Origin: Candidatus Pacearchaeota archaeon
GTDB taxonomy: Archaea; Nanobdellota; Nanobdellia; Pacearchaeales; GW2011-AR1
Length of the DNA: 41,870 nucleotides
Assembly: GCA_018304025.1 (NCBI GenBank)
Contig: JAGVXA010000010.1
Coordinates: forward strand, 1 to 41,870
Direction: 5' to 3'
The number at the start of each line of letters is the position of its first letter. Within the stretch, counting starts at the first letter, position 1. Positions 9,253 through 23,908 of this stretch are shown piece by piece. The position numbers were made by a program, and so were the translations under genes. The notes below the pieces were generated by a model. The model was not told where the DNA came from. It saw nothing but the letters and a program-made list of their open reading frames with translations, and ran no database searches.

Positions 9253-9448
9253 ACAAAATTTAACCCTTGAACTTCACTGCGTTCATTCAAGGCTTAAAAT
9301 TCTTTCAGAATTTTAACCCTTGAAAATCCTACGCTCATTTCATTCGCTTCGTCAATTCAAGTGTTAAATTTTGGGTACAAAATTTAACCCTTGAACTTCA
9401 CTGCGTTCATTCAAGGCTTAAAATTCTTTCAGAATTTTAACCCTTGAA
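9253..9448. repeat. 72-bp perfect direct repeat made of hairpins
   Basis: Positions 9253-9324 and 9377-9448 are identical over 72 bases. Each unit ends in a long hairpin in which TTCAAGG pairs with CCTTGAA and TTAAAATTC with GAATTTTAA. The 52 bases between the copies contribute a third variant hairpin (TTAAATTTTG with CAAAATTTAA, flanked by TTCAAG/CTTGAA). The array lies just upstream of scpA and contains no open frame of note. Confidence 0.85.
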
Positions 9449-13942: not shown

Positions 13943-14040
13943 AGCAAAGAAGTGGAAGCCACATTTCGACTACGAAGAAGAAGGGAATCTTCGATTCGCT
14001 CTTGCTCGAGTACTCGCTACGGCGAGCAAAGAAGTGGAAG
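13943..14040. repeat. tRNA-His 3'-end duplication flanking a hairpin element
   Basis: The 16-base sequence AGCAAAGAAGTGGAAG occurs at 13943-13958 and 14025-14040; the second copy contains the 3' end of tRNA-His. Between them lies an element whose 35-base core (13983-14017) is identical to one at 19597-19631 beside tRNA-Ile. The core carries TCTTCGATTCGC and a CGAGTACTCG palindrome. Confidence 0.8.
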
Positions 14041-19218: not shown

Positions 19219-19382
19219 CGATACTTTTGAAAATAATCCGTTTGGAAAAAATAATTAGCGTGGTAGAATCGAGAAATTAATCGAAGATTAATTTCCGAGT
19301 ATTTGATGATTAATTGAAGTTGATATTTTTACGGTTTAGAGAAACGAAACTTTAAATAACTTACAAATTCTGTTATCTGTGA

Positions 19383-19587: not shown

Positions 19588-19670
19588 ATTGGGGAAGGGA
19601 ATCTTCGATTCGCTCTTGCTCGAGTACTCGCGTCGGCGAACGAAGAGGTTCAAATCCCAGCAGGATCATT
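19567..19670. repeat. tRNA-Ile 3'-end duplication flanking a 56-bp hairpin element
   Basis: Twenty-four bases of the tRNA 3' end (19567-19590) are repeated exactly at 19647-19670. The 56-base spacer (19591-19646) carries the same 35-base core as at tRNA-His, with TCTTCGATTCGC facing GCGAACGAAGA as an imperfect inverted repeat around CGAGTACTCG. Confidence 0.88.
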
Positions 19671-21956: not shown

Positions 21957-21981
21957 ATTCGTGTATATAAATTTTAATTGT

Positions 21982-22060
21982 TTTGTCGCGCATTTGGACG
22001 CCATTTTTTGTCGTCGGCGTCTTGTCTGAAAAATTTGCTCCGTAAATTTAGCGCGGCAAA
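21982..22060 (+). ncRNA. Three-way-junction structured element, copy 2
   Basis: Outer stem 21982-21991 pairs with 22051-22060 (10 bp, one G-T). Hairpin 1 is GACGCC 21997-22002 with GGCGTC 22016-22021, and hairpin 2 pairs 22031-22038 with 22042-22049. The junctions are ATTTG and TTGTCT, slightly changed from the AATTG and TTATCT of the other copies. Confidence 0.6.
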
Positions 22061-23614: not shown

Positions 23615-23701
23615 ATTGCAGATAATTTTGAAACTAATTAGAAGGTAAATTTATTTTGTAATTCTCTTGCGCACCGAAATCAATTATATAAAATATATTT
23701 G

Positions 23702-23784
23702 TTTGTCGCGCAATTGGACTTGCCTATTTTTATCGCTGGCAAGTCTTATCTGTAAAATTCGCTTCGCGAATTTGGCGCGACAAA
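23702..23784 (+). ncRNA. Three-way-junction structured element, copy 3
   Basis: Outer stem 23702-23711 with 23775-23784 is a perfect 10 bp. AATTG follows, then hairpin 1 GACTTGCC/GGCAAGTC (23717-23724 with 23738-23745), TTATCTGT, and hairpin 2 AAATTCGC/GCGAATTT (23755-23762 with 23766-23773). Hairpin 1 has changed at several positions relative to copies 1 and 4 but keeps full pairing. Confidence 0.65.
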
Positions 23785-23823
23785 ATTATCCAAATAATTA
23801 AAGCTACATAAGATAGATGTATC

Positions 23824-23908
23824 TCGGTGCGCAATTGGACGCACAATTTATTTTGCTGTGCGTCTTATCTATATGAAAATTCGCTTCGCGAATTTTCTGG
23901 CGCACCGA
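23824..23908 (+). ncRNA. Three-way-junction structured element, copy 4
   Basis: Outer stem 23824-23832 with 23900-23908 is a perfect 9 bp. AATTG, hairpin 1 GACGCACA/TGTGCGTC (23838-23845 with 23857-23864), TTATCT and a 9-bp hairpin 2 (23876-23884 with 23888-23896, TTC loop) complete the fold. It lies 39 bases after copy 3, in tandem, upstream of the metallopeptidase gene. Confidence 0.65.

Follow-up and report, generated by a model that had tools for sequence, protein, structure and literature searches.

The window, by which we mean the whole stretch of 41,870 nucleotides that was analysed, belongs to a DPANN-type genome of 0.99 Mb (G000, an assembly of 29 contigs that is 88% complete) and harbours four copies of an element that folds into a three-way junction. 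All four lie on the + strand, at 1580–1667 (copy A, given a start of 1579 in the preliminary description; 82 bits), 21982–22060 (copy B; 75 bits), 23702–23784 (copy C; 88 bits) and 23824–23908 (copy D; 72 bits), in agreement with their first description. The unit begins with an AT-rich left arm, often containing a TATA-like box, which is followed by the three-way junction, comprising in order the closing stem P1, AATTG, the hairpin P2 with its conserved loop, TTATC and the hairpin P3 with a TTC or TCC loop. Its unpaired conserved parts are the AATTG before P2, the AATT...CGGCT-like loop of P2 and the TTATC between P2 and P3.

In copy C, the 5' strand of P1 (TTTGTCGCGC, 23702–23711) pairs with the 3' strand at 23775–23784 and encloses the unpaired, conserved AATTG junction (23712–23716), the P2 hairpin GACTTGCC/GGCAAGTC with the conserved loop TATTTTTATCGCT (23717–23745), the equally unpaired and conserved junction TTATCTGT (23746–23753) and the P3 hairpin AAATTCGC-TTC-GCGAATTT (23755–23773), all on the + strand. 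The P3 loop is the place at which whole elements are nested in other copies. The stems of copy A are TTCGGCACGC/GCGTGCTGAA (P1), GACGCACA/TGTGCGTC (P2) and GAAAATTTAC-TTC-GTAAATTTTC (P3); those of copy D are TCGGTGCGC/GCGCACCGA, GACGCACA/TGTGCGTC and GAAAATTCGC-TTC-GCGAATTTTC, while copy B combines a P1 of TTTGTCGCGC/GCGCGGCAAA with a P2 of GACGCC/GGCGTC and a P3 loop of TCC. The stem substitutions first quoted for these copies are real, AATTG/ATTTG and TTATCT/TTGTCT are indeed unpaired in all four, and the second hairpin (P3), described as usually closed by TTC, has a loop of either TTC or TCC. TATA-like boxes, also on the + strand, precede copy A (TATATAAA, 1562–1569), copy B (21964–21971), copy C (23685–23692) and, in degenerate form, copy D (TACATAAG, 23805–23812). 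An Rfam search of the window returned tRNAs only and no match for the element, consistent with the initial statement that it could not be matched to a known class.

Folding and compensatory changes

Each window copy folds on its own, with the outer stem P1 around hairpins P2 and P3, and the fold is more stable than those of shuffled sequences (z-scores of -9.4, -3.3, -6.2 and -6.6 for the four copies). A covariance model (R1) was built from a seed of 13 copies with an explicit structure, and covariation was assessed in an alignment of 61 matches at E < 0.01 (59 of them distinct) from the fetched part of the genome. Both-side changes were found in 23 of the 24 pairs, double-change cells numbered 223 against 74 expected after shuffling, 89% of the cells pair (about 95% in P2 and P3) and the covariation score was 0.370, compared with 0.133 for shuffled alignments. 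As the model guided the alignment, these pair counts are biased in favour of the structure; sliding the partner by one to three columns destroyed the signal, with a score below 0.1 in every slid version. The exchange of P2 stems is plain by eye (GACGCACA/TGTGCGTC, GACTTGCC/GGCAAGTC, GATTCGC/GCGAATC, GACTCGC/GCGAGTC, GACGCC/GGCGTC, GATTTTG/CAAAATC and GTTTGACA/TGTCAAAC): whole stems are swapped between copies that have the junction motifs and the P2-loop motif in common. The preliminary description had read such covariation as selection on an RNA or cruciform structure, and a folded single strand that is under selection or actively maintained is strongly supported.

Copy number, insertion sites and orientation

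The covariance-model search suggested at the outset uncovered further copies, about 60 genome-wide rather than four: R1 gave 71 matches in the host genome at E < 1, of which 63 were at E < 0.01. A second model, R2, returned at E < 0.01 66 matches in the host, 30 in G002, 11 in G008, four in G003, three in G001, two in G004, one in G005 and none in the congeners G006, G007 and G009. Among 200 genomes of the order, a single borderline match was found outside the genus. Spread beyond the genus was also discarded after GTDB contigs had been scanned for an exact pattern; of the seven matches, one is a true element, in the metagenome-assembled genome of Nanoarchaeota archaeon MM_PW_MetaG.mb.4; its coordinates are identical to those in G008, so that the two are probably the same genome. 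The same kind of scan detected no element in viral contigs.

About half of the host assembly (contigs C2, C5, C8, C9, C11, C12, C17, C24 and C26–C28) contains no three-way-junction copies, and the regions of G002 that correspond to these contigs are also poor in copies. For genes on element-bearing host contigs, most of the matches in G002 fall on contigs that likewise bear elements. For 27 of 53 host elements, a G002 element lies within 3 kb of the match of a neighbouring gene, compared with 44 of 144 background genes. This territory may be a result of replication timing or of long intergenic regions. A second hairpin repeat, ATCGAGAAATT-[variable stem]-AATTTCCGAG, occurs in the window at 19267–19310 and throughout the host genome, with its stem swapped as a whole and all copies on the G-rich strand (38:0); since this family occurs on both element-bearing and element-free contigs, the two groups belong together.

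Copies of the main element are found nested in the P3 loops of others, in the arrangement AAATTCGCTC[TTGATGCGTCGC...GCGACGCATCAA]CTCCGCGAATTT, as well as in P2 loops. Empty sites were sought by joining the flanks of an insertion by script and searching the genome for the joined sequence. The element at C6:13588 sits in the P3 loop of another element, an intact relative of which lies at C6:57843 (a 93-nt match with 96% identity), and those at C21:56037 and C13:26129 sit in the TTC loop of the second hairpin family (GAAATTGCTC-TTC-GAGCAATTTC), which is thus a target of insertion and of which empty copies are present at C13:70350 and C2:26943. Target duplications amount to none or 1 nt at C6:13588, to about 3 nt (CTC) in other P3 nestings and perhaps to 4–5 nt in P2 nestings; the CTC-type nestings occur in TCC loops. 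Because neither the boundaries nor the duplications are uniform, no single cleavage rule is established, and the left flanks of the few insertion sites, with duplications of 0–5 nt, display no common motif on visual inspection. The number of nested composites may overstate the number of events from which they descend.

The four window copies are intergenic, as first described, but this does not hold genome-wide, because copies also sit in frame inside genes. Two copies are inserted in frame in a YgiQ-type gene whose radical SAM product matches Pfam Radical_SAM_N (E = 4e-75), one adding about 34 codons and the other about 38. The alignment with the homologue from another genus (G017), which has neither insertion, breaks at both places, protein positions of about 186–223 and 394–427. 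A MazG-like gene, named from its protein sequence and without a Pfam match, contains one in-frame copy that is absent from the homologues in G015, G034 and G005, and a ROK kinase gene has one copy at its N-terminus. Of four in-gene copies that were checked, three run antisense to the gene that carries them. At both YgiQ sites, the inserted DNA extends about 20 nt leftwards of P1 and contains the TATA-like box, which argues for movement at the DNA level.

The strand of the element coincides with the sign of the GC skew in 60 of 61 matches on 13 contigs of the host, nine with positive skew (C3, C4, C6, C13, C15, C19, C20, C21 and C22) and four with negative skew (C1, C7, C10 and C25), the sole exception being a weak antisense overlap at C1:10847. 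As copies share ancestry, these counts are not independent, and it is more prudent to count contigs (13 of 13); GC skew serves here as a proxy for replication direction. Local skew agrees for ten motifs in the host and ten in G002, except where it is near zero. Genes are split 410 to 368. Other hairpin repeats of the host display the same polarity. That polarity is a trivial property of any repeat was ruled out by mixed repeats in the host (5:2) and in G004; in the latter genome, where the element is almost absent, an interspersed repeat is unpolarised (8:7), so that polarity is not automatic. It is unusually strict and common to several hairpin families.

Origin of the copies and of the fold

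We consider it likely, with a probability of roughly two in three, that the element is a non-autonomous, mobile palindromic DNA of about 80–115 bp. Its presence in many copies, its insertion in hairpin loops and protein genes, the swapping of stems as modules, the upkeep of pairing and the link between orientation and the sign of the GC skew are shown. The folded single strand would move at replication forks, and, if only foldable copies move, copies would stay foldable; pairing would then covary because copies that had lost the fold would not be propagated. The catalytic step of this movement is a matter of guesswork. Several observations count against this reading: the host genome, 88% complete, gave no match for a Y1 transposase (PF01797) and no TnpB over the cut-off, boundaries and duplications vary, about half of the assembly lacks the element, and with DNA energy parameters the + strand does not fold significantly better than its complement. 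A Y1 (IS200-type) transposase is present in eight of ten congeners. Ends shared with the IS200-type elements of the genus were rejected, as the ends of Y1 elements in the congeners give no match to the model, and one element in G008 (C76) is merely near a decayed Y1 gene. For the two tyrosine recombinases encoded in the genome, no link to the elements was seen. Spread by reverse transcription was likewise set aside, the only reverse transcriptase found being that of a diversity-generating retroelement. This retroelement (L235, at about 27700–30300 of contig C11) has, besides a template repeat, two variable repeats that differ mainly at template adenines; the reading frame of its reverse transcriptase seems interrupted close to a G-run. 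It is possible, if rather doubtful, that several unrelated hairpin families are moved by one putative single-stranded DNA machinery that acts on the lagging-strand template only and favours hairpin loops; almost every short hairpin repeat on the chromosome would then be expected to point with replication.

The main enzyme-free rival is template switching combined with self-templated correction of palindromes. Replication errors, in the form of template switching at hairpins, would multiply neutral palindromes and self-templated correction would perfect their stems, with neither selection nor an enzyme. Covariation, insertion into hairpin loops, irregular duplications and strand polarity would all be explained without a transposase, as would a polarity common to several unrelated hairpin families. 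On the other hand, conserved unpaired motifs and a conserved P2 loop are not expected from such a process, and long-range transfer would be needed for complete units, left arm included, to be inserted cleanly and in frame into unlinked genes. This explanation is unlikely.

The copies might instead be multi-copy genes for a small noncoding RNA acting in trans, each with its own TATA promoter, and their multiplication would be incidental. Strong covariation together with conserved unpaired motifs is what such genes would display, a TATA-like box occupies a fixed place relative to P1 in 26 of 60 copies, and in 46 of 57 copies the + strand is the one favoured by RNA energies. An excess of G-U pairs was not accepted as evidence that RNA folds, since such pairs are favoured on the G-rich strand in any case and can also stem from its C-to-T bias. 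TATA motifs in the host are most frequent at 29 and 27 nt before ATG, the spacing of leaderless genes, and the box in the elements lies 17–20 nt before P1; by the genome's own spacing, transcription would therefore start 7–12 nt inside P1 or at AATTG, which would remove the 5' strand of P1 from the transcript, yet P1 covaries. Nested and in-gene copies, the latter mostly antisense, and an orientation that follows GC skew and not gene direction also speak against RNA genes. The original reading as RNA elements is not supported, the copies being mobile, and we regard RNA genes as decidedly unlikely. The element may act as a mobile promoter.

Signals that guide replication or segregation (KOPS-like, or marks of origin or terminus) and are selected for orientation would account for the near-perfect polarity and for the correspondence by gene content of element-bearing regions between the host and G002, but are highly improbable, given that the clusters of nested copies, the mosaic make-up of stems, the copies inside genes and the scarcity of the element, almost missing from other congeners, look like mobile DNA and that several unrelated families have the same polarity.

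Relation to known palindromic elements

Mobile palindromes are already known, and Rickettsia palindromic elements (RPE) sit in frame in protein genes; no mobile palindrome in DPANN archaea was described in the literature searched. In-frame insertion in protein genes, twice in the YgiQ-type gene and once in the MazG-like gene with homologues lacking it, is shared by the archaeal element, which differs in having a three-way junction and conserved unpaired motifs, in being nested in hairpin loops and in an orientation that follows GC skew; the comparison is by description. RPE are palindromic units of about 100–150 bp located between and inside genes (PMC2229807).

The lagging-strand template is where IS200/IS605 elements insert (PMC6006769), and TnpA-REP (RAYT) recognises hairpins that have an unpaired motif at the foot (PMC8266576). 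The archaeal element resembles IS200/IS605 in an orientation that fits the lagging-strand template (60 of 61 matches and 13 of 13 contigs, with GC skew as a proxy), and resembles these and REP/REPIN in the proposed recognition of a folded single strand and the unpaired motif at the foot of a hairpin. In contrast to them, it is devoid of a GTAG motif and has two hairpins inside a closing stem, with no Y1 enzyme found in the host and the ends of Y1 elements of congeners unmatched; IS200/IS605 and TnpA-REP may thus serve as models only, and membership is not claimed.

In the yeast GC cluster GC42, the hairpin structure is under constraint, and mitochondrial double-hairpin elements are cited as mobile in the same paper (PMC4478555). 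These are, like the archaeal element, small mobile palindromes, but of organelle genomes; the third closing stem, the in-frame insertion in genes and the strand polarity are features observed in the archaeal element. Classical MITEs are similarly short, non-autonomous and dispersed, with inverted ends, whereas the target duplication of the archaeal element is not constant (0–1, 3 or 4–5 nt) and, because P1 varies freely, there is no fixed terminal repeat sequence.

As mobile DNA, the elements would constitute a natural record of single-strand-coupled insertion, and their polarity would allow the direction of replication to be read from metagenome assemblies that are fragmented. They also call for caution, since covariation, ordinarily taken to prove that an RNA is functional, can arise from mobile DNA that needs to fold in order to move.

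Further repeats were observed. One of them, TTCGATTCGCTCTTGCTCG...GGCGAACGAAGA, adjoins tRNA genes, with the 3' half of a tRNA duplicated (window positions 13980–14035 and 19594–19649); its seven genome copies are all oriented alike with respect to contig skew, irrespective of the direction of the tRNA. In an intergenic region of the window, a 72-nt sequence occurs twice in direct orientation and identical form, 124 nt apart (9253–9324 and 9377–9448). Identical sequences of about 98 nt at many contig ends of the host (C13:1–98, C28, C26, C2, C29, C21, C1 and C14) are probably repeats that broke the assembly. Finally, large putative surface proteins encoded in the window share a GNCEIKKAYWRI-like C-terminal tail (12609, 25212, 28518 and 31339), which is possibly a sorting signal.
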